This document shows positions 5,669-22,683 of a DNA stretch of 47,249 bases, in pieces; within the stretch, counting starts at the first letter, position 1, and each line of letters starts with the position of its first letter. The translations under genes and the position numbers were made by a program. The DNA lies in NCBI GenBank assembly GCA_030613245.1, contig JAUWMI010000033.1, positions 1-47,249 of the forward strand. Direction: 5' to 3'. This DNA is from Candidatus Sumerlaeota bacterium (GTDB taxonomy: Bacteria > Sumerlaeota > Sumerlaeia > MWCT01 > JAUWMI01). The notes beneath the pieces were generated by a model. The model had not been told where the DNA came from and made no database searches. It saw only the letters and a program-made list of their open reading frames with translations.

Positions 5669-7222
5669 CTATGGTGTGGCCTTGAATTCTGCAAACCGCA
5701 CACCGTGGGACAGCGAGCGGTCCTTGAACGCCGTACGGTAGAACACCCCGCAGCTTCCTGTCGTACGCAAGTTGCTTTTCGCTGTATGGAAGGGCTGGTC
5801 GTCAAGTTCATAGGAAATGGTTTTACCCGAGCAGCGGATTGCAAACTTATGCCAGCCGCTTTTTTTCAGGTAGATGTAAGGCTTGGGATGAAAGTCATCA
5901 ATCCCTCCGTTTCTTGTGTTTCCTGCGCGAAGCCGGCCGTCATCGGAATCATACGTCATGCAATAGCTCTCACCAGACATTATTAGGTCATTTGTGTTGG
6001 GGGCATGGTCGTCATTTTCGCGAATGAAGATTCCGATACGATCCCAGCCCTGTGGTAGCTCTTCCGGGCGATAGTCGCAGTAGATCATTGCCTCGACTCT
6101 ATAGTCGGTCCATGTAGAGTCGCCGAGCCAGGCAGTGTCGTATTCCTTGCCTGGTGTAAGCAGGCGCAATGTATTTGGCCTGGTTGTCGAGCTGCTCGCT
6201 TCCAGAGAACCGAATTTGACAAACCAGTTGAGCGAAGGTTTGCCGCTCCTGGCTTCTTCGATAAGAGGCAGCGACCATGAGACTTTTGGTTCGACGTGGA
6301 TCTTGGCAGCCATATCAAAGATTCCCGGGCCGGAAGCTGCTGAGTCGGGTAAACGACGTCCCTGGACGTCAAGGAGGTTCCAGTATTCTTTAAATATGGT
6401 GGGTCTTGTCACCTGTGGAGCTTTTATTTTAAATACAAAGCGGGCAATGTCGCCCGGGGCAACCTTTTCGGCAAGCATGACACGCGATGGGGATATCCAG
6501 CTGTCGCTGAGGTAAAAAGGGCTTTGACGCGGGGTGCAAGTTGTAAACGATGGCTCGATTGCTTCCAGATAGGTTGGGTCGGGCCAAGGTTGCTTGCCGT
6601 TGTTCTTCACATCAAGCTGAACTTCTGCGATTTCACCAGGCGCCATATAGCTTGGCGCAGATATGGAAATAAGCTTTCCTGAGATTTGCGGTTCGCGAAA
6701 TGGTTCTGGATGGATAAAGGTGCCACCACGCCAATTAAACGCCTCCCAGTCTGTCACGAGGTGTGGCCCGCCGAGGCTGTAACCAGATGCTTTTCGCGAT
6801 GGGTCGTGCACAATCCATTTTCCGTCATCGGTATAACCTATAATCAGTACGAAGTGTCCATACCTCCCAAGGTCGCAGCCAGTGATCACAGGATGCCCTG
6901 CGTCCAGCTCTTTCTTGAGCGTGTCCGCGTTCCAGCCGAGCTCGTACCAGCATGGAAGGGCATACAGATTGTAATCCTTTACGATCTCTGGAAGATTATA
7001 GCGGTCGTATTGTGTTCGTTTGTGCAGTTGGAAAATAGTATTGGTTGTAAGCTCCACTTTGCCCTTGAAGTGAAGGGTCATCGCAAGACAGGTAGGAAGA
7101 CAGGTCTGGTCATCGGGCTGTGACAGGTACGGAACAGGCAGATCAACGCCTGCGGTTGAAAGGCGAAGGGTGAAAGTACAAAAGGCAATGCATAGTATAA
7201 GATGATGCAAGCGATAGTTCAT
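5669..7222 (-). CDS. Secreted C39-like cysteine peptidase with Ig-like and LamG-like domains
   Basis: Predicted exported papain-like peptidase of the Peptidase_C39_2 type. Residues 1-25 are a signal peptide. Residues about 28-165 form the peptidase domain with candidate active site Cys41 (motif QTCLPTC, with Gln35), His123 (GRYGHFVLIIGY) and Asp140 (VHDPSRKASGY). Residues about 185-315 resemble an NBR1-like Ig domain (SAPSYMAPGEIAEVQLDVKNNG...W). Residues about 325-517 form a LamG/concanavalin-like sandwich ending VRFAEFKATP. The ATG at 7222 is chosen over a TTG at 7231 because GAGGAG lies 12 nt before the ATG but only 3 nt before the TTG. The 3' end is duplicated at 2966-3095. C39 domains in ABC exporters cut double-glycine leaders, but no transporter is fused or adjacent, so the substrate is unknown. 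Confidence 0.8.
   Translation of the reverse strand: MNYRLHHLILCIAFCTFTLRLSTAGVDLPVPYLSQPDDQTCLPTCLAMTLHFKGKVELTTNTIFQLHKRTQYDRYNLPEIVKDYNLYALPCWYELGWNADTLKKELDAGHPVITGCDLGRYGHFVLIIGYTDDGKWIVHDPSRKASGYSLGGPHLVTDWEAFNWRGGTFIHPEPFREPQISGKLISISAPSYMAPGEIAEVQLDVKNNGKQPWPDPTYLEAIEPSFTTCTPRQSPFYLSDSWISPSRVMLAEKVAPGDIARFVFKIKAPQVTRPTIFKEYWNLLDVQGRRLPDSAASGPGIFDMAAKIHVEPKVSWSLPLIEEARSGKPSLNWFVKFGSLEASSSTTRPNTLRLLTPGKEYDTAWLGDSTWTDYRVEAMIYCDYRPEELPQGWDRIGIFIRENDDHAPNTNDLIMSGESYCMTYDSDDGRLRAGNTRNGGIDDFHPKPYIYLKKSGWHKFAIRCSGKTISYELDDQPFHTAKSNLRTTGSCGVFYRTAFKDRSLSHGVRFAEFKATP
5679..5797 (-). repeat. Copy B of duplicated LamG-gene 3' end (in the intact gene)
   Basis: Direct repeat partner of 2976-3095, same orientation, about 94% identical, lying wholly inside the last 43 codons of the C39/LamG gene. 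The two copies bracket the beta-helix/PA14 gene. Confidence 0.9.
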
Positions 7223-7808
7223 GGGTGACAATGGCTCCTCTGATTTTTTAAATTTACCGATAGTTACATAATCATACTGTAGAGTTAGGAATTTGAGGTG
7301 GTCAACCTTTTTTCGCGATAATGTTCTGCCAAAATTAATCTTCGAATTAATTTCTGTATCGAGCTGCGCTACCGCACACCGTTGAGGAAATATTGTATTA
7401 AATTCTTAACTTGCTGTCAGAAACACCTCGGGAGAGGTGCAGGGCAGGCAAAAAGAAAATGGAACAGAATGCGTACGTCTACACTAAGGATCAGATCTTG
7501 AAATTATTGTTACTGGCTAGGGGCAATTCTCAAGGTTTGGCGTAGATCACGCGCTTGCCATTGATGCGGACGAGGTACGGTCTTGAAATTTGAGATTACG
7601 GCAAAAATTTCCATACCACAGGCCGGCAGGAAGGCCTTATAGATGAGTGCTGATTGCTGACTTCTGATCGCTGCTTTGTCGCAATCTCCAGCTTCCGGAG
7701 GTTGCGGAATATACCACGGCAGCTCGAGTCCCATATGCAGGGGACCCACACTTAAAACAAAAGTTCAAAATTCAACAACTGACTTCCATTTAAAACTGGC
7801 CGCGGGGC
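7223..7808. other. Intergenic region with a possible gene scrap
   Basis: No complete gene recognised. On the minus strand a short frame ending in TGA at 7530-7532 reads RPYLVRINGKRVIYAKP, which looks like an authentic protein C-terminus but is preceded by an in-frame stop. It may be another 3' fragment. The stretch around 7640-7665 contains CTGATTGCTGA-type low-complexity sequence. Confidence 0.45.
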
Positions 7809-8387
7809 TTAGTCGACATACCCTTCGACTCTCTTTTGAGTACGGTAAATATCACCCCGGCTTACCGTGCCGTTGGTGGGATCATAGATGTTTTGCCCGC
7901 CGTCGTAATCGGCAGTCGGACCGAGTGAACCCATCTTCCATGCCCCATATGCAGGGTAATAGAGGTTGCTGAATAAGGGATCATCCCACCCCCCGGCGTT
8001 ATAGTTCTCGTGGAGCCAGATACAATTTTGCCAGAATATTCTATCATGTTCGTCATCGAAGGTACGCATTGCAAAGATGTCTTTAATATCTTTGCTCGAG
8101 ATGTAGGCTATGGGGGTAGTAACATGATTTGGAATGAAAGAATAGGCAGAGTTTCTGGTATCCGCCCATTGTTGAACGACGACGGGGGAAGGCGGATATT
8201 TGGTATGGTCCACATTGTAGGCTTCCACACCAGTTGCCACAGTTCGCGTATCGGCTTTGACGCGAGAAACTTTTGACCGTACCTGCGCCTCCAAAAAATT
8301 GGGAATAGCAATTGCAGCGAGAATCGCGATAATGGCAACTACAATCAATAGCTCGATTAACGTAAAACCTTTTCTTTGCAGGTTCAT
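7809..8387 (-). CDS. Type II secretion/type IV pilus pseudopilin (GspG-like)
   Basis: Structural pilin-like subunit of a type II secretion or type IV pilus machine, processed by prepilin peptidase and assembled at the inner membrane. The N-terminus has the class III signal: basic NLQRKG, cleavage at G/F, then FTLIELLIVVAIIAILAAIAIPNFLEAQ with the +5 glutamate, followed by a variable C-terminal domain (residues 35-192) with a G-x-x-Y-D-P-T-NGT-rich end. The ATG at 8387 is favoured over the TTG at 8393 because GAGGTGA sits 7 nt before the ATG and only 1 nt before the TTG. The gene is alone: no secretion ATPase or peptidase is in the window, as is usual for dispersed pseudopilins of PVC-like bacteria. 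The exact system is not determined. Confidence 0.88.
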   Translation of the reverse strand: MNLQRKGFTLIELLIVVAIIAILAAIAIPNFLEAQVRSKVSRVKADTRTVATGVEAYNVDHTKYPPSPVVVQQWADTRNSAYSFIPNHVTTPIAYISSKDIKDIFAMRTFDDEHDRIFWQNCIWLHENYNAGGWDDPLFSNLYYPAYGAWKMGSLGPTADYDGGQNIYDPTNGTVSRGDIYRTQKRVEGYVD

Positions 8388-8556
8388 TTTCAAATCACCT
8401 CGCTTCAGTTGGAATAGAGCAAATCGATTCTTGCATAACCACCCTCAAATTAGCAAGCCATCTTTGTCAAATGAGTTAGCATTTCGTGAGAGAGATAATC
8501 CATACGCACAAGGCGCATTTTCAACCTCACCTCGCCTGAGGCGGGTAAACCTTGAT

Positions 8557-8577
8557 CCTCTCCCCTCAGGGGAGAGG
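8557..8577. repeat. Perfect CCTCTCCCCT/AGGGGAGAGG palindrome
   Basis: Ten-base arms around a single central base. It lies upstream of the pseudopilin gene, so it is not a terminator for it. It resembles a widely scattered intergenic repeat type. Confidence 0.7.
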
Positions 8578-8897
8578 GAATACCAATGGCTACTTGTTAA
8601 AAGGTTTTGATCTGCATGTCAAGAGAAAAAATTGCGAATCTCAGAATCTCACGTGCCAATTAGCGAAACGAAGAGATTTTCGTAATCAAGACCTTGAGAC
8701 AGGGGACAGCATACGCCGACGATAGGATTAATTGCGCTTGCTAAGAATACTGGAGTTTTTCAATGTGGCAATCATTATTGAGCAACTCATCTGCTAAAAA
8801 GCCCCATTTTTTGTCCTTAAAAAGCAACTTTTTACTTATACTCCGTCTCTTTTGTTGAATGCTAATTACAAAATGCGGGATAAATTCCGAAAAGTGA

Positions 8898-8926
8898 TTG
8901 ACCGTCGGACAATAAAGTGATATGCA
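8898..8926 (+). promoter_or_regulatory. Possible promoter of the aldolase-like gene
   Basis: TTGACC (8898-8903), a 17-nt spacer and TATGCA (8921-8926) stand 41 nt before the GTG at 8967. The -35 is good, the -10 is weak. Confidence 0.35.
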
Positions 8927-8966
8927 AACCTAACTTATTCTGATTCAACAAAAGGAGGACAGGCTG

Positions 8967-9938
8967 GTGGAAGCACCCTGGATTACATTTCGACCGGAAA
9001 TCAAGGTACTCGACTGCACCATTCGCGACGGTGGTTTGATCAACGACCATCAATTCGATGAGAAGTTTGTGCGCGCCGTCTACGAAACCTGCGTCGCGGC
9101 GGGACTCGACTATATGGAAATCGGTTATAAGAATTCAAAGCGCATGTTTCCTCCCGACAAGTTTGGTGCCTTTCGCCACTCGGACGAGGAAGACATTCGC
9201 CGCATCGTCGGCGACAACGATACGCCGCTCAAACTTACCGCGATGGCCGACACTGGCGGCAAAAGCGACTGGAAAACCCAAATACAGCCAAAAGAAGAAA
9301 GCGTGCTTGATATGATTCGCGTAGCCTGCTACGTGCACCAGATTCCCGAGGCCGTTGATATGATCAATCACTCCCACGAGATGGGCTATGACGTGAGCTG
9401 CAACATCATGGCGATCTCGGCCGCGCAGGATGCTGAGATTGACCAAGCCCTTGAAGTGATCGTGCAAACCCCGGCCTCAGCAGTTGTCGTCGTCGACAGC
9501 TTCGGTGCGCTTTACCACGAACAAGTAGCTCTTCTCGTCGCGAAATATCAGAAGGCTCTGGAGGGTACGGGAAAGGAAGTCGGTATTCACATGCACAACA
9601 ACCAGCAGCTCGCTTTTGCCAACACCATTGAAGGAATCGTCCGCGGCGCAAACCGGATCGACGCCACGATGGCGGGTGTGGGGCGCGGTGCTGGCAATTG
9701 CCCAATGGAGCTGCTTTTGGGGTTTCTACGCAATCCCAAGTTTAAAGTCCGGCCCATCTGGAAGCTGCTTCAGGACCATTTCGTCAAGCTGCGCGAGACG
9801 CTCGAATGGGGTCCCCTGGCGCCCTACAACATCACCGGCCAACTCAATCAGCACCCGCGCACCGCAATAGCCTGGCGGGCTGGCGACCGCAAGGACATGT
9901 ATGCAGAATTCTACGACAAAACTATGGCTGACATTTAG
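8967..9938 (+). CDS. DRE-TIM (HMGL-like) aldolase/metallolyase
   Basis: Member of the HMG-CoA lyase-like DRE-TIM metallolyase superfamily, closest in look to 4-hydroxy-2-oxovalerate aldolase-type proteins; cleaves or condenses carbon-carbon bonds with a divalent metal. The signature is at residues 14-20, DCTIRDG. The metal-binding H-x-H pair is in GIHMHNN (about residues 207-213), followed by the conserved glycine-rich end of the barrel (AGVGRGAGNCPMELLLGFL). At 323 residues it is about the size of a bare TIM barrel; the C-terminal communication domain of true HOA aldolases appears short. The start is GTG at 8967 with AAAGGAGG 8 nt upstream. It is the only plus-strand gene in this half of the window and has no pathway partner nearby, so the substrate is unknown. 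Confidence 0.85.
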   Translation: MEAPWITFRPEIKVLDCTIRDGGLINDHQFDEKFVRAVYETCVAAGLDYMEIGYKNSKRMFPPDKFGAFRHSDEEDIRRIVGDNDTPLKLTAMADTGGKSDWKTQIQPKEESVLDMIRVACYVHQIPEAVDMINHSHEMGYDVSCNIMAISAAQDAEIDQALEVIVQTPASAVVVVDSFGALYHEQVALLVAKYQKALEGTGKEVGIHMHNNQQLAFANTIEGIVRGANRIDATMAGVGRGAGNCPMELLLGFLRNPKFKVRPIWKLLQDHFVKLRETLEWGPLAPYNITGQLNQHPRTAIAWRAGDRKDMYAEFYDKTMADI

Positions 9939-10102
9939 TGCGTCGAGCGGACGGTTAAGAATTTAGCGTTTCATCATAAAGAAGAACGGCGATACACCCA
10001 CATCTACAACGCATTTTGGGAAACGGCTTGCGGAGAGGTAAATGGCTAGTCCTACTTATTATGATGTTACCTTAAACCTGTCCTACCATAATTTAGGCTA
10101 AG
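9939..10102. other. Short intergenic stretch
   Basis: Nothing recognised between the aldolase gene and the saccharopine-dehydrogenase tail fragment. Confidence 0.5.
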
Positions 10103-10222
10103 TTACTCTCTCTTACTATCCTCTTCTGTAACCTCGAGTATATCTATGCTTCTCTTTTTCAGCTCGTTCATGAACCGCTCGTAGATGTCATAAACACCTA
10201 TCAAGAAGTCCTGAAGCAGGAA
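10103..10222 (-). pseudogene. 3' fragment of a saccharopine dehydrogenase-like gene
   Basis: The minus strand reads LLQDFLIG then VYDIYERFMNELKKRSIDI and LEVTEEDSKRE, ending in TAA at 10103-10105. This matches the C-terminus of the intact gene at 14183-15415 (KVYDRFMNELKKRNIDILEVIEE). At DNA level 10126-10186 and 14191-14251 agree at about 53 of 61 positions. Nothing upstream of about 10222 resembles the rest of that enzyme. It is therefore a remnant tail, in direct orientation, with the 1020-aa glycosidase gene between it and the intact copy. Confidence 0.8.
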
Positions 10223-10315
10223 TCAGATAGCACAGAGGCCAAGGAAAGTGCCCGTCGCAATTAAGCTACCAAATATGCCAGAAAGATTCATTCATCGATT
10301 CGCCTATTGACCACT

Positions 10316-13300
10316 TCACCCATTAACTGACTCTCCCACAACAACTACCGTTTGATTCAATTCAGGCGCTGTTACGGGAAAATAAAGGGGCCCGCCGGCG
10401 TTCCGTTCAACCTGTACGTAATATTCAATACCCATGCCCCGCGCGGCATCAGGAGGAAGCGACACGGAATAAACACCTCTTGCCACGTGAGTCAAGGCGA
10501 TAGAAGAGAAAGAGCCACAAGCCATCTCACGCCAGAAGAGGGCAGCGCTGCGAGGGGGTTCTCGGCCGAGGATAAGAACTTTTAAGCTCAGGATTTCGCC
10601 GGTCATAATACTGGTGCGAACCGTCGGCACCACAACGCGCGGTGCCCCGGTGTATTCCTTCGAGGGCAACGCGTCGGCAGGCAAAGGTTCGCCGAGAATT
10701 TTTGCCAGCTCTTCTCCCGGCGTTTCGAGTAAGTCTGGCAGGATGTGCTGCTCCCAGTTTGCAACCGTGCCCATCTCGGCGGTGGTGGTTATTGTTGCCA
10801 GAAGATAGCTATACGCCTTTGCGACCCGCAGAACTAATTGTATGCGAAGAGGTAGTGCCGTTTTCCTCGCCAGGTGCTTTTGAGTATCCGGATCTTTTTC
10901 GGCATTCACTTTTTCCATTGCTTGGTTGTACAGTGCCCAGGTGCATCGTACGCAGGCTGCCGCTTTGGCGTGGCGGAAATGGTCCAACCAGTAATCGAAC
11001 CGCTCCAATTGCCCTGCCCCTTTAACATGGGGTCGCAGCGCCGCCAGTTCGTCCACAAAAGCATACTCTTTGCGAACCTGATTCCATGGGCGTGCATCCG
11101 GCAGCAGGCCTCCGGGGCCGCCGACCCAAACGAAAGGTCGGGGTAACTTGCCATCTACGATTGTGAAGATTTTTGCAATTCGTTCAGCGACCTCAGGACC
11201 GAACTGGCGAAGTGCCCAGTCTTGATAGAAATCATCCGAGGGAAGATCGCGGGGTTTGCCATCGAATTGAGGCCAATCGGGGGCGTAATTTTTGTACACC
11301 GGGCCTCCGCAGTTAATCTTGCGGCTCAATTTCTTGCCTTCCACCACAACGCCGGCGATACAGGGGTTTCCGGTTTGGCGGATAAAGTCGATTTTGAGCT
11401 GGCCGCCGATGACGTGAATCTTTTCGAAAGCACAGTCGTAGGCCGTATTGAGACCGGCTTCGGCGAATATATCCAGGCGATCGATAATCTCCTTGTCTTG
11501 AATTCTGATGCCAAAGACCCGCTTGCCCTTTTCCTTGAAGTGGGGTTCGCAGAATTTGAGCGTAACCTTGTATGTTCCATCCGGTACGGACAAGCGGTAT
11601 CCGGCAAAATCGTATCGCACAGTCTGGTAAAGGGGGTCATCATCGGTGCCGGCAATGGGGGTGCCACTGAAGCTCGCGAAGACTCCGCCCAGAGGACCTT
11701 CCTCGCTCGTGCTTTCCGGCAGCCTCTCCACTGCCTTGTTCCATCGACTTTGATCCCAGGCAGCTTTTGCAAGAGAGGAAAAGTTAGGCCCCAGGATTCT
11801 CGTGCGCCAGTGAATGCCGATCAGCCCGGTGCAGCCATACTTAAACGCATCGGCAGCATCGCGTCGCATCCGCCCAGCCCAAAGCTGCGGGCAGCAAAAC
11901 GCAGCGTCGTCTTCCAGCCATGGAATTGCCCATTTCGACCGGCCCCCCAGATCTTCAAATGCAGGATCCACAGGCGCTTTGCCGGCGAAGCGATTGATGC
12001 AACTCATCGTGAAGTGCGCGGGAAGAATGCGGCGGAACATTGCGCGGTTTCCCTGCGGACCGAGAACCCAGCCGCAAGTTGCCAATTGAAACGGTGCTTT
12101 GATTCTTTCTGCAGCTGCGATAGCCATTTGCAGATCGGCGATTGTTTGTTGGATCTCTTCGTTCGACGAACCTTGCCACGTCCAAGCTTCCGGTGTCCAC
12201 AGCCAGTAATAATCGAGTGGATATGTCCTTGCCGCGCGCAGGAAGATCCCCTCGTAGAGTTCTTGGACCGTTGCAGGATCGGATGGCACCTTGCCCAAAG
12301 CTTCCAGGCGCTTCTTGAGGATTTCGGGAATGGTGAGTGGGATTTCGGTGCCGACGCATGTTTTAATACCCAGCCGACGGGCGTATCTGAACGCTTCCCG
12401 AAGCATGCCGCCCGTGCGGTTAAACAACTCATTACAGGCCTGTTTGGTCTCGGGCTGAGGCAACCAATCGTTCATGACAACTGGGCCATAGGCGTCGCGC
12501 TCAAAAAGCTCCGCAGCGCCAAAGGAGAAATCGCCGGTTTTCTTCACGAGGTAGCCGAAATTTCCCCGCAGCGTGTTCTGATAGCTGGCCGGATAGCTAA
12601 AGCGTACCCTGCCATCCTCATCCATATCCTCGGGTAGCCCGATCCACACGGTCGGCTCTGCAGCCGGGTGGTTGCCTGGTCGGCGTTCGGGGTAGGTATG
12701 CAGCCCGATGAAATTCATCCGGAGTTTCGGCAGCTGTGAAAGGATGGCTTTGTAGTTGTCCAGGTTCCACCAATCAGGGCCTTCCGGGAAATCGTGAAAA
12801 GGTAAGATCCCTCGGACAGCGAACAGCGGTTTGCCGCGCTCATCGAGATCCGGCAGCTGGAGCGCCATTCGTTTGTCCGGTATTGTGTCGCCATGCAGAT
12901 AAAAACCAACGCCAAGGTGCTCGGCAAACCGGTAGGTGCCATAGAGGGTTCCAAGCGGATCCCCTCCAGCGATAAGGACAATCTTTCGCCCGCCGCGATG
13001 AATCGTTTTCAACAAATAGTGTTCAGGTTCCAGGGCTGTGAGGGATGATTGAGTTGCTGGGGTCGGCTGCAAGGATTTCACCAGGAGGCGGTTCTTGCTG
13101 GTGACAACGATGGCATTCATCACAGACGCGTTAATCTCATCAACTTGGATGACAGGCAATAGTTGACCGGTTCGCTGATAAACATACCTGCGCACCTCGC
13201 GGGCGCCCAGCGTTTCAAGAAACGAAGCTTGTTGAGGCGAGAGAATGACGACATCCTGTAGCGTCGAAATCCTCGCCCCACGGCCTGACGGTTCGCTTTC

Positions 13301-15550: not shown

Positions 15551-16435
15551 TCATTCACTTTCTATCAAATTCACCAACCTGAGCAGTCTTCGCACAATTC
15601 CGCTTGGATCGGCTTTGACATCGTACTTGACGTTTCCCACGTAAGGGCCTTCGAAATACATGGCACGAGTGTCGGTAATCTCAAGAGACCCCGGTTTTTT
15701 AAAAATGCTGGGGCGTTGCTCAGCAAATTGCACGAGCTCATTTCGCAATTCACTCCTCTTGAACAAAGCCTTGACGCTCTGCTCGTCGTCTCCCTGTATG
15801 ATGTAAGCATTATCTAGCTCAGGGTAGCCGGTTTCGATATCTTGTTTTCTAAATAGACCCAAGCGCTTCAGAAACTTGTGATTCCATTTGGCTGAATAAA
15901 CTCTCAAATCCATATCGGGACGGTTTTTAAAATACACAGAGATCCTTATACCGTCCACTGCCTTTGCCTCTACCATCAATCCCAGTCCAAATCGTGATCC
16001 TAGTACGACACTGCTGACTCTCTTCGAAGTGACGAGATGGCCTTCAAGGTGTCCTCTATATTCATCAGGGATTTCGTCCTGTGTGAGTCCTGCAAGGTGA
16101 ACGTTCGTATCATACATTTCACCCTTATCGAGAAAAAAGCCATTGCAGTTGGGACAGCAATCAAAAATTATTTCCGAATAGCCCAAGAGGTTTACCTTGC
16201 TCATGTCCTGGTTCAGACACTTTGGGCATTTCCTAACAGGGAACCTATCCTCGTGTTTTTCCTGATCAATGGAGCAGTATTCGATGTCGCCGGCCATGCC
16301 AGTAGCCAGGACATTGAGTTCGCTCTTATCAAGCCAGACACCTCCACAGCGTGGGCACACATCGGTTGTAATGTCGGGTTCCGGAACCTTTTCCATTTCG
16401 GTGTGGCAGTGTGGACACTCTAGTGCCTTCATCAT
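15551..16435 (-). CDS. zf-TFIIB (zinc ribbon) domain protein
   Basis: Soluble protein with two TFIIB-like zinc ribbons, each with paired CxxC motifs: residues about 7-40 (CPHC ... CPRCGGVWLDKSEL) and about 70-107 (CPKC ... CPNCNGFFLDKGEM). The repeated WLDKSE/FLDKGE ending is the hallmark of this family. The C-terminal 160 residues (starting near GHLVTSKRV) form an unnamed mixed alpha/beta domain. Function is unknown; such proteins often act as small zinc-dependent adaptors, which here would be a guess. GGAGGA lies 3-6 nt before the double ATG at 16435/16432, and either may be used. The remnant of a UPF0175-type gene ends 24 nt upstream. Confidence 0.85.
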   Translation of the reverse strand: MMKALECPHCHTEMEKVPEPDITTDVCPRCGGVWLDKSELNVLATGMAGDIEYCSIDQEKHEDRFPVRKCPKCLNQDMSKVNLLGYSEIIFDCCPNCNGFFLDKGEMYDTNVHLAGLTQDEIPDEYRGHLEGHLVTSKRVSSVVLGSRFGLGLMVEAKAVDGIRISVYFKNRPDMDLRVYSAKWNHKFLKRLGLFRKQDIETGYPELDNAYIIQGDDEQSVKALFKRSELRNELVQFAEQRPSIFKKPGSLEITDTRAMYFEGPYVGNVKYDVKADPSGIVRRLLRLVNLIESE

Positions 16436-16560: not shown

Positions 16561-17113
16561 TTCCTTGTGATAAATCAATTAAAAGCCTGGGATGGTAGTA
16601 GCGCAAACCGAAAAATTGCTCAGACGAGGATAGATTAACCAGTTCCTCACCAGTGACGACGGACAACAGAGCCAAGTGTAAACGACTGAGCTTCCGGGTC
16701 AATTCTTGGCCCTCAAGCCCTATCAATTCCTTTTCAAGGTTGCGCATTTCAGGAAGAAGAGCGCGCGCAGCATTCCACAATTGGTTTTCGGACAGGCCCG
16801 GCTTATGCCATAAATTACGCACTGAGCAAACCTGCACCAAGTGAGCCAAATAGGTGGCCAGTAACTCTCTGGTCGCTTTTCTATCGAGCGACTTCTGCCA
16901 CCTTCGGAAAATACCCTGGGAAAAGTCTGAACGAAAAGCTGTCCAAGACGCAGCTAGAAGCAGCCGAATAGCACGCTGCAATGGCCAGTCAATACTATCG
17001 GACTCCTTCATAAGGCATTGAAGGGTTGGCACACAAACCGAGTTCCAGTGCCTGCGTCTTCCTGTCAGGATATCAGCAACGCTCCAGAGAAGTCCACCAG
17101 CAGACTTGCTCAT
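16532..17113 (-). CDS. Hypothetical protein (193 aa)
   Basis: I do not recognise this protein. It is predominantly helical, leucine/arginine-rich and without a signal peptide or transmembrane segment; one tryptophan-rich patch occurs near SIDWPLQRAIRLLLAASWTA. The ATG at 17113 has only a weak GGGGT ribosome site about 6 nt upstream. Its last 10 codons overlap the UPF0175-like remnant in another frame. It borders the DUF3800/nuclease pair and the restriction enzyme, so it may belong to the same accessory block. It could also be a chance open frame; protein-like composition is the main argument for it. Confidence 0.45.
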   Translation of the reverse strand: MSKSAGGLLWSVADILTGRRRHWNSVCVPTLQCLMKESDSIDWPLQRAIRLLLAASWTAFRSDFSQGIFRRWQKSLDRKATRELLATYLAHLVQVCSVRNLWHKPGLSENQLWNAARALLPEMRNLEKELIGLEGQELTRKLSRLHLALLSVVTGEELVNLSSSEQFFGLRYYHPRLLIDLSQGIASELSCGL

Positions 17114-17468
17114 AGCTACCCCTGATGCGAATGAGTATCTAGGGAAAAAATGGGGACAGAGAGGCTGTCCGACAATTCAAAATCATACTAATTTAACTGG
17201 GCGGTAAATTTTGTAAGTTTTGCATTTACAACGCTTTAGAAATTCAGCGCGCGGCTACTTTAGGCTACATCGCAATTCTCGGAAAGCCGATCTGTCCTAG
17301 CTAATTACAAAAAGATACGTCAAAGTGTCAAAAACACTTGACAAGAGAATCGGCTTTGCCGCAAATTTATAGTTGATGTTTGGTCGTAAAAGACCAAGCA
17401 GTTTTGAGCCCTTTACTTAAAGTTTAGGGTTAATCGACAGCCCTGTGCAAATTGTGCGCAGGGCTAAC
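17114..17468. other. Intergenic region with hairpins
   Basis: Contains TTGGTC-GTAAAA-GACCAA near 17384-17401 and an AGCCCTG...CAGGGCT hairpin near 17440-17466, just past the stop of the nuclease-like gene. No gene recognised. Confidence 0.5.
17440..17466 (-). terminator. Hairpin downstream of the BECR-like gene
   Basis: AGCCCTG and CAGGGCT arms (7 bp, plus weaker inner pairing) begin 3 nt after the stop of the 155-aa gene. There is no T-run, so any termination would be weak or factor-assisted. Confidence 0.4.
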
Positions 17469-17936
17469 TTATATCAGTTCCATAAAATTCGTTTTTTGAT
17501 TAATCGTTCTTACGTTTTCTTGTCTAGGAGAATAGTGGGTACAAAACCTGAACTCTCCATTGTTCAAAAGCGTAAGAATTACAAGATATTTCTTTGCAAT
17601 GTGCATATATAAGCGGCGAGTTATCCCGCGCCGAGGGTGATCTTGGGCGAGTCGAACAACAACTCCTGAAACCTGCCCGGATATTATTGCCCCAATCCAC
17701 CGCACTCTTCTAGCTCTATCAAAGCTGAATATTTTCTTGTCTTTGTCTTCATAAAATGCGTGGGCAAAATCATTTTCAACAAAATGAACCCTTAAGCCGT
17801 CATGGGTGTAGATTTTTCGTTCTGCGCCTTCTGAATCTCTAATGTAATTTTCCATAAACAGTTTTTTGCATTGGTTTATTACGTCATGTTCGCTTCCTTT
17901 GTATCTTACTGTCAAGGAATCTAAGTGTATTTTCAC
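17469..17936 (-). CDS. Putative BECR-fold ribonuclease-like protein paired with DUF3800
   Basis: Small soluble protein of 155 residues. The layout resembles phage/plasmid Barnase-EndoU-ColicinE5/D-RelE (BECR/PBECR) nuclease-like families. A middle F-x-H-A-F motif (ENDFAHAFYE) is followed by FSFDRARRVRWIGAII, a basic segment with several arginines (HPRRGITRRLYMHIAKKY), a LVILTLL strand, and a closing FRFCTHY strand that recalls the F-x-T-A-Y end of such RNases. His and Arg residues at these places could be catalytic. The start is GTG at 17936, whose GTGA overlaps the stop of the DUF3800 gene, so the two are translationally coupled. The family call is by eye and could be wrong; an RNA-cleaving role is inference. 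Confidence 0.5.
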   Translation of the reverse strand: MKIHLDSLTVRYKGSEHDVINQCKKLFMENYIRDSEGAERKIYTHDGLRVHFVENDFAHAFYEDKDKKIFSFDRARRVRWIGAIISGQVSGVVVRLAQDHPRRGITRRLYMHIAKKYLVILTLLNNGEFRFCTHYSPRQENVRTINQKTNFMELI

Positions 17937-18628
17937 GTTCTTGGCTCAAATCGAAAAACGTTGAATTTCCGTTCTCTCCAAGACGTTGAGATTTTTAGAT
18001 TTGGATAACCCATTAGACTAGCCAAATATGCACAAAGTTCTAGCTTGGCAGCACTGGTTTGAATGTCATTGTATTGATACCCAATAGCGCCTATGAGCAC
18101 GTCAACAATTTGCACAGGCAGCACTTGCTTAGAAACAAGAGGTTCTAGAGTTTTAATTACTGCCTTTTTGGACTTGACCGCGTTCTGAAGAACGGCTTTA
18201 AGAACTGGCACTCTTTTTCTGTCGCGGTTCTGTTTGAAATCCAAGAGCATATAATACTCACAATCTGCCTCAACCCATTTTTCCAAAAGCAAATAGTAGA
18301 ACTTATAGAATCCCAGCTCTTCATCGCCTGCATGAAATTTTCCATAATCCAATTGATTTCGGTTCACAACAATTGCCCTGAAGCGCAGGCTTTTGTCTTT
18401 CACAAAATCGGATACTAGCTGTTTATAGAGGGGCAACCTCGATGGAGAAACATTTTTCCACTTCCATTCCCCCCAGGTATTAAACTCGTCTCTGTATTTC
18501 TTTAACCGATAAACCCAGTCGTCTTTGTGCTTCCGCGGACACCAAATACTACCTATCACCATAAAATCAGAAGTTTGGTCATCGTGTCGGCTTTCGTCAC
18601 AATAGACATTGTAAATTTCGGAATGCAT
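17933..18628 (-). CDS. DUF3800 domain protein
   Basis: DUF3800 proteins have an RNase H-like fold and start with a Y-x-DES motif; here VYCDESRHDD is at residues 8-17, followed by FMVIGSIWCPR. Further conserved acidic positions are MLLDFKQNRD (about 125) and QIVDVLIGAIGYQYND (about 173), which would complete a metal-binding acidic cluster. The 231-residue length is normal for the family. The biochemical activity is not established. The family is frequent in mobile and defence-rich regions. It is the first gene of a two-gene unit, overlapping the BECR-like gene by 4 nt, and lies near a restriction enzyme. The ATG at 18628 has AGGATG 9-10 nt upstream. Confidence 0.8.
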   Translation of the reverse strand: MHSEIYNVYCDESRHDDQTSDFMVIGSIWCPRKHKDDWVYRLKKYRDEFNTWGEWKWKNVSPSRLPLYKQLVSDFVKDKSLRFRAIVVNRNQLDYGKFHAGDEELGFYKFYYLLLEKWVEADCEYYMLLDFKQNRDRKRVPVLKAVLQNAVKSKKAVIKTLEPLVSKQVLPVQIVDVLIGAIGYQYNDIQTSAAKLELCAYLASLMGYPNLKISTSWRERKFNVFRFEPRT

Positions 18629-18863
18629 CTCGTGCTCATCCTACCCATAAAATTTCAGGGAAAACTGACACCGAGAAAACGACAACAGACGGCATTATTT
18701 AATTTTTCCGCTTTCTCGGCATTTCTGGATACCGTGAACACAGCATAGCGAATGCTAAGATTTCGAAAGCTACTAGCTACTCATGGGCGGCCGATGGATC
18801 TCTCAGCGCGCCAAAAATCGGCCTCTGGTGCTTATTCGTTCCCAGCGACTCGTTGGGACAGTT

Positions 18864-19091
18864 TTAGTTTTTGGCTAGCTCGTCGAGGTTATTTTTTTTC
18901 TTGCCATCAGGATTAGATCGCAAATAGGGTTTCCTATTCCTGGGGTTAACTGCATGGGCATTATCAATTTCTCCCCTCTTAGCCATTTTAATCGCGGTTT
19001 TCAGCGGAGTATGCCTCTGATTCCCTCGGAATAGAACCTCACCAATGTTTCCCTTTGCGTCACGGTTTGCATCCACTATTCTCTTGCCCAT
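18864..19091 (-). CDS. DUF3892 domain protein (75 aa)
   Basis: Small basic protein covering the whole DUF3892 family: RIVDANRDAKGNIGEVLF at residues 4-21, TPLKTAIKMAKRGEI in the middle and YLRSNPDGKKKNNLDELAKN at the end. The function of the family is unknown; its size and charge would suit nucleic-acid binding. A GGAGGGG ribosome site lies 6 nt before the ATG at 19091. It follows the restriction-modification gene by about 50 bp on the same strand and may be co-transcribed with it. Confidence 0.85.
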   Translation of the reverse strand: MGKRIVDANRDAKGNIGEVLFRGNQRHTPLKTAIKMAKRGEIDNAHAVNPRNRKPYLRSNPDGKKKNNLDELAKN

Positions 19092-19140: not shown

Positions 19141-22100
19141 TTATTTAATAGGCCAGCCGCCGTGCTTGTCGATAGTTTTATCTATTTCAGCCATGATGCG
19201 GATGGTTTCGGATAAAGCGGACACAATGTGCTGGTAGTGCGTGAGATCATCGTAGCTGAGCTGGCGGCCTTTGCGGTCTTTGAGGCACTTTTCGCAGACC
19301 TGATACCCGCCGATATGGAATTCCCAGACTTCCGGCGGCACGTTGTCAAAATACTGTTCTTTATTAATCCATACGCGGCCTGCCGGCGCGCCCTGCCCGG
19401 GCTCCGTATAGCGCACTTTTTCCACGCGGTTATCGCCCGCAACAGTATATTTCGTGAATATAGGCGCGTGTTTCTCCATCAAGTGCAAGCCAACCAGTTC
19501 TTCTCCCAGAGCGCAGAGGTCACGAAACAGGGCCGGCTTTGACGTCAGCGGCAGCCTGGGAAAATCGAACTTAAGAAACTCTGCGTAGCGGCTTCGATAG
19601 GCGGGCGAATGAAAAACTGCATACATATAATTGAAAACATTCTCCGGCCCGAAGGCCTTTTTTGAATTGCCTTTGCCGTCGGGGATAAACGTCAGCCCAA
19701 GCCGCCGGGAAAGCTCTTCTATAAACTCCGGCGCCAGATTCGGCTGCCGCCAGTCCTTTGCGATTGGCCGGTCAAAGTCAAGAAAGTCATCTTTTTCGTG
19801 TTTGGGATAGAGGTAAATTGGAAAAGCATACAGACTGGCATGAGCGGTTTCGAGCAGGTGAAAATCAACGACGTGTCTTGACATAAGAACATGGTTGAAT
19901 TCGATTCGAGTTTGACGATTTGTAATAAACATAAGGTTACTACCGATGGTCATGTGCCCCATCACTTCCGGGCGGGGCATGCAGATGAAGCCTCGTGATT
20001 TACTGGTATAATAGGTAAATCGAGTGTCAAATGGCCGGTATAGGATTGGACATATTTTCTTTTTATCCGGCCCGGATTCCTTCAAGTCCTGCTGAGCAAA
20101 GCTTACTTTCCAATCGCGAGCGTCAGGGCCAAGCTGATACCTTTCGCGAGCTTCCTCAGGCGAAAGGCGTATAAAATCAGTAACTGTGTCCCAAACTGAT
20201 TTCTCGTCCCAGTGAATGGTTAGTTTATCCCGGGCAGTAACGATGCCTACTGAATTGACAGGCATTATTTCTGGCAGTTTCCACCCCTGTACATATTCGT
20301 TGAGCAAGCCGGTATCCTGGGGAACAAATAAATAGTAGGGTGATTGCGGATTTATGCTTGTCCATTTGCCAGTTTTTACTGCGTTTTCATAAAGCCAGTG
20401 ATACTTGCCTCCTATAAGTCGTGATTGGCCCGTTGCATCTCTTTCTAGCACTTCTCGCAGTCCCCATACATCAGCATGCTTGACGCAATGTGCTCTTTTT
20501 CTTGCTTCGGCGGGATGCTTGACAAAAATACCAATTGCAACCCCTTGCTGAATATCAAACACGTTTTCATCCTTAGAGCCATCGGGGCACACTTCCCTTT
20601 TCTTGGCGTTTCCGTGCAGATCGAGAATATGTATTTCGTCAAAAGCCTGCATAAGACACTGACGCATGCCACGAAACGTAGGATTGTCAAGGTAGCTATG
20701 GTTGGTAATGAAAGCAAGGATCCCATAACCCGTCTGTTCAATGCGCCATTGAGCAAACCGGATAAACTTAACGTAATCGTCGTTTAGCCATTTAGGATTC
20801 CGCTCGTGTAAAGGTTCTCCATCAACTTGGAAATAATCCTGGATAAGGTCACCGATAAAGGTCTTTTCTTTTCTACGAATTCTCTTCGCAGCTGTCTTTA
20901 GCCTCCATCCCTTTTTTGTTTTAACCTTATAGGTCTGACCGGGCATTATTTCTACAATACGCTCCGATGGCGTTTGTGAATGACCGGAATACGGAGGATT
21001 ACCGAGAATAACCATGACCGGCGTTTCGGATTTCACGTTGCCCGCGGCGTTGGCTTCTTCGGCGATTTTGCTGGCAAATGGAGGCAATTCAAAGAATTCA
21101 AAGAATTCCTCGAGAGCATTTGTTAAGTAAACACGCAAACGTTCTCCTGAGGCAAAGTCATACCCGCTTTCTGCTAGCTGCAGGCTAAGCTTCATATGTA
21201 CTACGGCATAAGGCGCCATCAGGAGCTCGAAGCCGAAAAGGCGCGGCAGTAGATGTTTTGAGACATACCCTGACCACATGCCTGCCTGGCCTTTCTTCTC
21301 CAAGTGCTCGTGAATCTGATCAATAACGGTATAGAGAAACGTACCGGTGCCAACTGCAGGGTCTAGAATAAGAACCTTATGACATTCGCCAGCCTTTTCC
21401 TTATGGGGTTTTCCTCCAATGTCGTGCACAGTTCGATAAAATGGAATCCTTGAGCAGTCAGCAAGGCCGTCTTGCAGGCCAAAATCCTTTTTGAGAATAT
21501 GGTCAATGCTCCGGACAATGTAAGAAACAACAGGCTCCGGGGTATAGTAAACTCCGCGTGAATCGCGCATTTTGGGATTGTACGCAGCAAGAAAGGTTTC
21601 GTAAAAATGTACCACGGGGTCTTCGCGCCGGGTGCGTTTGCCGAAATTCTCCAGGATGCTGGCAATATCGGCGCGGTAAAGCAGTTCTGCCAGATCATCC
21701 ACCGCCCAGGTGACCCGCTCATCAAGATCAGGGCCTGCAATATAGCCGAACATTTCCCTCAAAAAGGGATTGGTTTTAGGGATTTCGTAGGCAGCGCGTT
21801 CGCGCGTGAAGGGTTCGCGGCCCGTATGATTACAGCGCGCGGCGAAAAGGCCGTAGCAAATGGTCTGGGCATACATGTCAGCGAAGCCGTCTAGCTTCAG
21901 GTCGTGAAGCAGGACCTTGCGAAAGCCTTCCAACTGGCCGTGCAGCGAGCCCCCTTTGTCTTCATCCTGGAAGGTGCGTTGAATGATGTCGCGGATGAGG
22001 CGAGCAAGGACAGCCATGCGATTCGCCAGGTCTTTTGGGCCGCTGATCGTTGGAATGGTTGTGACAAAGAATGCATTTATCAGATTTGAAAATGCTTCGG

Positions 22101-22533
22101 TGCCATCTTTTTCCTTGCGCAGGTTCCCTTTCGTACCCACCCTGGCGAGCCGTGCCGCCATTCTGAATTTGCCGCCCTCGTACCAGCGAAACTCCAGGTA
22201 ATCAGTCAGGATAAGATTCCCGAGACTTTCGAGGAAGCGCTTGAGCTGGTCGCCGTCGTGGGTAGACGGCTTTTTCTTTCTAGCATCGGCTTCTATTGCA
22301 TCGAGGGATTTTCCAACGTCTTTTGCTTCGATGTAGCCGAGCGGAGTTTGGCCGCGGGTGACGATGAAATCAGGAGCGCCGCACTTCACTCGCTTCGGCT
22401 CGTTGGTAGCCGTGACCTTCTTGCCCAGGGCTTCGATAAGGGCTTTGAGCGCGGGACGATGGGTGTGTTCCGTGGCGGTGCCCGCCTGGAGGGCTTTCTC
22501 GATCTTCTTCAGGTAGTTTGTGATCGGATCCAT
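19141..22533 (-). CDS. Single-chain restriction-modification enzyme (type IIG/ISP-like, no helicase)
   Basis: One polypeptide of about 1130 residues likely to both methylate adenine and cut DNA. Residues about 40-120 hold a PD-(D/E)xK nuclease core (GAPDFIV ... GYIEAKD). A helical linker extends to about 330 (VVHFYETFLAAYNPKMRDSRGVYYTPEPVV). The gamma-type N6-adenine methylase carries motif I LDPAVGTGTFL near 400 and motif IV NPPYSGHS near 510. The C-terminal half resembles the specificity domain of LlaBIII-like type ISP enzymes (ILYRPFDTRFTYYT; FNYMYAVFHSPAYRSRY). There is no helicase region between nuclease and methylase, unlike true ISP enzymes. The ATG at 22533 is chosen over a TTG 36 nt upstream; neither has a strong ribosome site. 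Target sequence unknown. Confidence 0.88.
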   Translation of the reverse strand: MDPITNYLKKIEKALQAGTATEHTHRPALKALIEALGKKVTATNEPKRVKCGAPDFIVTRGQTPLGYIEAKDVGKSLDAIEADARKKKPSTHDGDQLKRFLESLGNLILTDYLEFRWYEGGKFRMAARLARVGTKGNLRKEKDGTEAFSNLINAFFVTTIPTISGPKDLANRMAVLARLIRDIIQRTFQDEDKGGSLHGQLEGFRKVLLHDLKLDGFADMYAQTICYGLFAARCNHTGREPFTRERAAYEIPKTNPFLREMFGYIAGPDLDERVTWAVDDLAELLYRADIASILENFGKRTRREDPVVHFYETFLAAYNPKMRDSRGVYYTPEPVVSYIVRSIDHILKKDFGLQDGLADCSRIPFYRTVHDIGGKPHKEKAGECHKVLILDPAVGTGTFLYTVIDQIHEHLEKKGQAGMWSGYVSKHLLPRLFGFELLMAPYAVVHMKLSLQLAESGYDFASGERLRVYLTNALEEFFEFFELPPFASKIAEEANAAGNVKSETPVMVILGNPPYSGHSQTPSERIVEIMPGQTYKVKTKKGWRLKTAAKRIRRKEKTFIGDLIQDYFQVDGEPLHERNPKWLNDDYVKFIRFAQWRIEQTGYGILAFITNHSYLDNPTFRGMRQCLMQAFDEIHILDLHGNAKKREVCPDGSKDENVFDIQQGVAIGIFVKHPAEARKRAHCVKHADVWGLREVLERDATGQSRLIGGKYHWLYENAVKTGKWTSINPQSPYYLFVPQDTGLLNEYVQGWKLPEIMPVNSVGIVTARDKLTIHWDEKSVWDTVTDFIRLSPEEARERYQLGPDARDWKVSFAQQDLKESGPDKKKICPILYRPFDTRFTYYTSKSRGFICMPRPEVMGHMTIGSNLMFITNRQTRIEFNHVLMSRHVVDFHLLETAHASLYAFPIYLYPKHEKDDFLDFDRPIAKDWRQPNLAPEFIEELSRRLGLTFIPDGKGNSKKAFGPENVFNYMYAVFHSPAYRSRYAEFLKFDFPRLPLTSKPALFRDLCALGEELVGLHLMEKHAPIFTKYTVAGDNRVEKVRYTEPGQGAPAGRVWINKEQYFDNVPPEVWEFHIGGYQVCEKCLKDRKGRQLSYDDLTHYQHIVSALSETIRIMAEIDKTIDKHGGWPIK

Positions 22534-22683
22534 TGAAAACTTTATCCAAGTTAGTATAGTTTGTGCCAAGTCTAACTTATGAGATAGTGCAACTTTTTAA
22601 TATAAGAATCAAGTAAAAGTGAAAAACGGCTTCGGATTGAAGGAAGCGACAATTCCAGCTATTCGGCGTGTTGAAGCCAGGTG

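Follow-up and report, generated by a model that had tools for sequence, protein, structure and literature searches.

PrrC is a latent anticodon nuclease encoded in a type I restriction operon; it is silenced by the restriction enzyme and freed when T4 Stp inhibits that enzyme (PMC2610378, PMC3874165). A second group of relevant nucleases shares the BECR fold, the plan of which has been described (PMC3482391). Its PBECR families were described as domains in phage polyvalent and minor capsid proteins, and an active site formed by a helix His and a Ser or Thr in strand 4 is given for five of the six families (PMC5512222). For DUF3800 proteins, earlier work predicted an RNase H fold in which the catalytic residues are rearranged (PMC10910872). 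They have been reported beside rare CRISPR systems and non-coding RNAs, and are found with CRISPR effectors, as nucleases accessory to these (PMC10910872, PMC12669027). Finally, the PADLOC collection of defence models includes candidate systems (PDC), which stem from a "guilt-by-embedding" survey cited in PMC12988326 (preprint 10.1101/2024.01.29.577857, Payne et al.). One entry of this candidate list, PDC-M63, gave no defence when tested (PMC12409345). In the literature searched we found neither the name PDC-M04, another of these candidates, nor a characterization of the gene pair that it denotes.

The window analysed here, a stretch of 47,249 nt from a Candidatus Sumerlaeota bacterium, carries a PDC-M04 pair on its minus strand. 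Gene A (17933..18628, ATG start) encodes a DUF3800 protein of 231 aa, and gene B (17469..17936, GTG start) a protein of 155 aa that is a predicted PBECR-type RNase. The stop of A and the start of B share the four bases GTGA (17933..17936), an overlap from which translational coupling of the two genes can be inferred. Both reading frames and the overlap had been placed correctly in the initial annotation, and the motifs that it had recognized are present: Y-C-DES at residues 9–13 of A, and F57-A-H59-A-F61, R74-A-R-R77-V-R-W80-I81 and F131-C-T133-H-Y135 in B. A scores 34.6 bits against the Pfam DUF3800 family (PF12686), above the curated cutoff of 21, and the two proteins match the PADLOC models PDC-M04A (PDLC04353, E 9.8e-69) and PDC-M04B (PDLC04359, E 8.9e-18). 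The pair is not a chance arrangement, because both proteins match these models and the overlap arrangement recurs in relatives. Profile scans assigned no Pfam, NCBIfam or PHROG family to the B protein of the window; a match to MGMT_N (E 0.14) was dismissed as chance. No Rfam DUF3800 RNA motif lies near the pair. The GC content dips to 40–43% at 17000–18999, over the pair, against roughly 50–53% in much of the surroundings, which suggests recent acquisition. Terminator-like hairpins are found downstream of B (17170–17154, minus strand) and between A and the adjacent DUF3892 gene (18840–18858, plus strand), and hairpins are no more numerous than in shuffled sequence.

The locus is thus not a first sighting. 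The initial annotation knew of no characterized system of this kind; the pair proves to be catalogued already as PDC-M04, with both models matched, the same gene order and adjacent genes, and to be homologous to rlfA-rlfB of phage P1, and no characterization of either was found. We see no difference between the window pair and the PADLOC family, for which PADLOC gives no function. What appears to be new is the link to P1 rlfAB, the pairing of a BECR with an RNase HII-like protein, the position inside restriction operons, and the mechanism proposed below. In kind, the window pair belongs with restriction-embedded RNase effectors and BECR toxin modules, as a variant of these, and is not categorically new. 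It ties together an uncharacterized PADLOC candidate, the DUF3800 family and the P1 genes, and for each of them it yields a prediction of the fold, of the residues in the active site and of the logic of the circuit.

The search for conserved DUF3800 neighbours proposed in the initial annotation was carried out in both directions. The 80 best relatives of A in the genome scan span many phyla, and a B profile placed B immediately downstream in 79 of them; the scan used six A seeds, each with a B neighbour, so this proportion is valid for that DUF3800 subfamily only. B occurred nowhere else among the 8546 ORFs of all loci searched. When the best start was chosen, B began within 4 nt of the A stop in 68 of the 79 loci and between −8 and +13 nt in 78. 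The reverse scan, with the B profile against about 1130 genomes, is independent of the A-seeded one and detected B in 39 genomes, in 35 of them with A directly upstream. The four exceptions comprise a pair split by a transposon, two decayed B genes and a contig end. In the split pair (locus L229 of genome G266, 6168–12246), an otherwise complete type I operon reads hsdM-hsdS-A, a transposon-like block with TnsB/TnsC-like genes, then B-hsdR, and a complete B ORF is kept 4.9 kb from A. Leaving the contig-end case aside, no intact B without an A in its locus was seen among the 39 genomes. A without B does occur, in the phages Moorella MCACPph1, E. coli Chuche and Mannheimia PHL101 and in one Nitrospirota genome, and these stand-alone relatives keep the acidic residues discussed below in all cases but that of Moorella MCACPph1. 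Pairwise distances of A and B correlate (r = 0.90; the highest of 1000 permutations gave 0.26), and the two trees agree. The pair, the absence of which from other genomes would have spoken against a two-gene module, thus recurs across many bacterial phyla, and the conserved pairing and gene order support an obligate pair within the subfamily of A. Single-sequence searches with the window B found no direct relatives in viral contigs, plasmids or phages; those relatives were reached only via A or via profiles, and a viral scan with a narrower B alignment returned one locus, which was already known.

The surroundings of the pair point to restriction, and at many loci to restriction operons, a link that the initial annotation did not make. 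In the window, the gene upstream encodes a type IIG/ISP restriction-modification enzyme (19141..22569, minus strand; Type_ISP_C 4.8e-94; REase_MTase_IIG 1.7e-293, 975 bits), and between this and the pair, on the same strand, lies a gene for a DUF3892 protein of 75 aa (18864..19091). Just downstream of the island, a 294-aa protein with two TFIIB-type zinc ribbons is encoded on the minus strand (15551–16435). Although the window pair itself adjoins a type IIG enzyme and not a type I operon, the pair is enriched inside type I operons among its relatives. Their 138 nearest flanking genes include Methylase_S (HsdS specificity) 15 times, ResIII 12 times, HSDR_N and SWI2_SNF2 10 times each and N6_Mtase 5 times, whereas 138 control genes more than 4.5 kb away include two N6_Mtase and, among the 25 families listed, none of the other four. 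With the seeds used, an Hsd subunit lies within about 8 kb at no fewer than 30 of the 79 loci, and complete loci read hsdM-hsdS-A-B-hsdR or, in another case, hsdS-hsdM-GIY-hsdS-A-B-hsdR. Many relatives thus resemble the prr locus in that a gene for a predicted RNase-type effector sits inside a restriction operon. The resemblance ends at the proteins: PrrC is a single-polypeptide ABC ATPase-nuclease in a type IC operon, whereas A and B are two unrelated small proteins with no ATPase, and in profile scans neither matched an ABC ATPase or a PrrC-type nuclease domain.

B is very probably a BECR-type (PBECR-type) RNase, as judged from its predicted fold plan, an invariant His and Thr/Ser pair, and matches to PBECR2. 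The structure prediction suggested for the 155-aa protein in the initial annotation gave an AlphaFold2 model of high confidence (pLDDT 90.6, pTM 0.85), and this has the BECR plan and not an unrelated fold: helices 56–61, 72–76 and 78–85 are followed by a four-strand meander (92–97, 108–113, 117–123 and 129–135). H59, in the helix 56–61, and R74 are invariant in 102 of 102 B relatives; position 133, in strand 4 (129–135), is Thr or Ser in all 102, and position 135 is Tyr or Phe in 100. PBECR2 (PF18810) is the commonest match, found for 27 of the 102 members scanned singly, always below threshold; the best reaches 26.0 bits (E 1.1e-5) against a cutoff of 27.1, and none of the 102 passes a Pfam PBECR cutoff. 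The BECR RNase of the initial annotation is thus borne out in fold and putative catalytic residues but not by a Pfam-level family match. B shares the fold plan and the helix-His/strand-4 Ser-Thr pattern with the PBECR2 domains of phage minor head and polyvalent proteins, and differs from these in being a solo protein paired with A, in scoring below the Pfam cutoff and in having R74 as a second invariant residue. An alignment of B with one PBECR2 branch by hhalign matched the right elements, weakly (E 0.011, probability 4%; unrelated control E 0.18), and a PF18810 search of the phylum of the window returned nothing. Among viral models (BFVD), phage polyvalent and minor capsid proteins came out on top (probability 0.90–1.00, E 1.2e-3); against the PDB nothing was significant, and the best match (E 0.025, probability 0.44) was to chains of a toxin-antitoxin module from pneumococcus. 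Sequence searches found no solved structure for either A or B. A separate Ferriphaselus prophage encodes a minor head (MuF-type) protein (locus L160, 637–1929) whose C-terminal domain exceeds the Pfam cutoff for PBECR2.

The AlphaFold2 model of A (pLDDT 94.7) agrees with the RNase H-like fold and acidic cluster noted in the initial annotation and narrows them down. Its top 17 matches in the PDB are all RNase HII, H2 or HIII (best E 1.6e-5, probability 1.00, TM about 0.45), with human RNase H2 among the best. Residues D11, E12, D130 and D176 are conserved in at least 99% of 123 sequences. In the model, strand 1 finishes with D11-E12, part of the Y-x-D-E-S signature, and strand 4 with D130; D176 is found in a late helix. 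We take this order to be that of the D-E-D-D site of RNase HII, a match of residue order made without superposition. A profile scan found no helix-turn-helix family and no DNA-binding domain in A; in view of the RNase HII-like fold, a profile match of A to BRO1 (E 0.005, residues 15–79) was put down to chance. A is probably an enzyme rather than a passive antitoxin, because the modelled fold is RNase HII-like and the conserved acidic set is complete.

A tblastn search with A retrieved P1 RlfA and P7 RapA, at about 31% identity over the whole length. In P1, rlfB follows rlfA with a 1-nt overlap; repL immediately precedes the two genes, which are under a C1 operator. A B profile built without the window and without P1 recovers the B protein of each (96 and 89 bits), and the PADLOC PDC-M04 models score RlfA at 318 bits and RlfB at 173 bits. 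On these profile and model scores, P1 rlfA-rlfB is a PDC-M04 pair by sequence. It is homologous to the window pair and has the same gene order and conserved residues, but resides in a lytic replicon operon outside any restriction operon, whereas the window pair is beside a restriction gene.

Building on the observed pairing and gene order, the two folds, the conserved putative active sites, the link to restriction and the homology with rlfAB, we lean with modest confidence towards a two-gene RNase effector module in which A controls B, with B set free on failure of restriction or on an attack on the DNA. Such a module would travel with restriction-modification systems and phage-plasmids. B would be a BECR (PBECR-type) RNase that needs no metal, cuts tRNA or another RNA and probably harms the cell that makes it. 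A, translated before B and coupled to it, would hold or license B. By a PrrC-like logic, B would stay latent while restriction works, and would be freed when a phage inhibits restriction or A meets a nucleic-acid cue; freed B would then stop translation in the infected cell. The module would monitor the restriction system next to it or, in the case of P1, the state of infection. We infer RNase activity, toxicity, the RNA target and the trigger, as well as control of B by A, for which gene order and co-occurrence are the only basis. If right, the module would represent a second, ATPase-free design among the few RNases embedded in restriction operons. A more specific proposal, which we put forward tentatively, is that PDC-M04/rlfAB form a new class of restriction guard, with a DUF3800 RNase HII-like sensor holding a BECR RNase in a latent state and setting it free on inhibition of restriction or on foreign RNA-DNA hybrids. 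In that case, P1 would have the same device as a guard against superinfection.

An alternative is a plain toxin-antitoxin pair, in which A merely sequesters the BECR toxin B and the module stabilizes its carrier, a phage-plasmid or a restriction locus, with no defence trigger. The partner-first order and coupled translation, the finding of stand-alone A but of no intact B whose locus has no A, a pattern that a toxin B would lead one to expect, and the plasmid state of the P1 prophage all accord with it, and RelE/HigB type II systems likewise place the partner gene first in a bicistronic operon with a BECR-type toxin, here a candidate one. The character of A, however, makes us consider this reading unlikely. 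In place of a small DNA-binding antitoxin there is a large enzyme-like protein of RNase HII fold, 231 aa long and with no DNA-binding domain detected, and its full RNase HII-like acidic set would be unusual for a passive antitoxin. The same properties of A can be read the other way, as a sign that the two proteins are cooperating nucleases: A would handle a nucleic acid (an RNA-DNA hybrid, an R-loop or a replication primer) and pass a product or signal on, as an activator of B and not as its inhibitor. Both putative active sites are conserved, A resembles RNase HII, and the CRISPR-associated DUF3800 proteins are a precedent for accessory nucleases; phages, however, also encode A-like proteins that stand alone and have the acidic residues of A, and we hold this reading, too, to be rather doubtful.

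The P1 annotation of these genes as "possibly associated with lytic replication" has no evidence behind it, and a role in replication or RNA processing in mobile elements, to which the label would lead, is the least supported of the alternatives and in our view very improbable. The position of rlfA-rlfB directly after repL under the C1 operator would suit it, as would an RNase HII-like enzyme that could act on primers. On the other side, silencing of rlfA or rlfB by CRISPRi left P1 plating unreduced, in a screen that also missed the essential repL (PMC10695390), P1-like phage-plasmids vary in the rlfAB region, where GC is low (PMC9603915), and most relatives of the pair reside in bacterial genomes, many of them beside restriction genes. 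The hypothesis of an RNase module controlled by A is directly testable with P1 and E. coli K-12, both of them in standard use. Of 5426 complete E. coli genomes, 121 carry a near-identical pair, nearly always on plasmid records.
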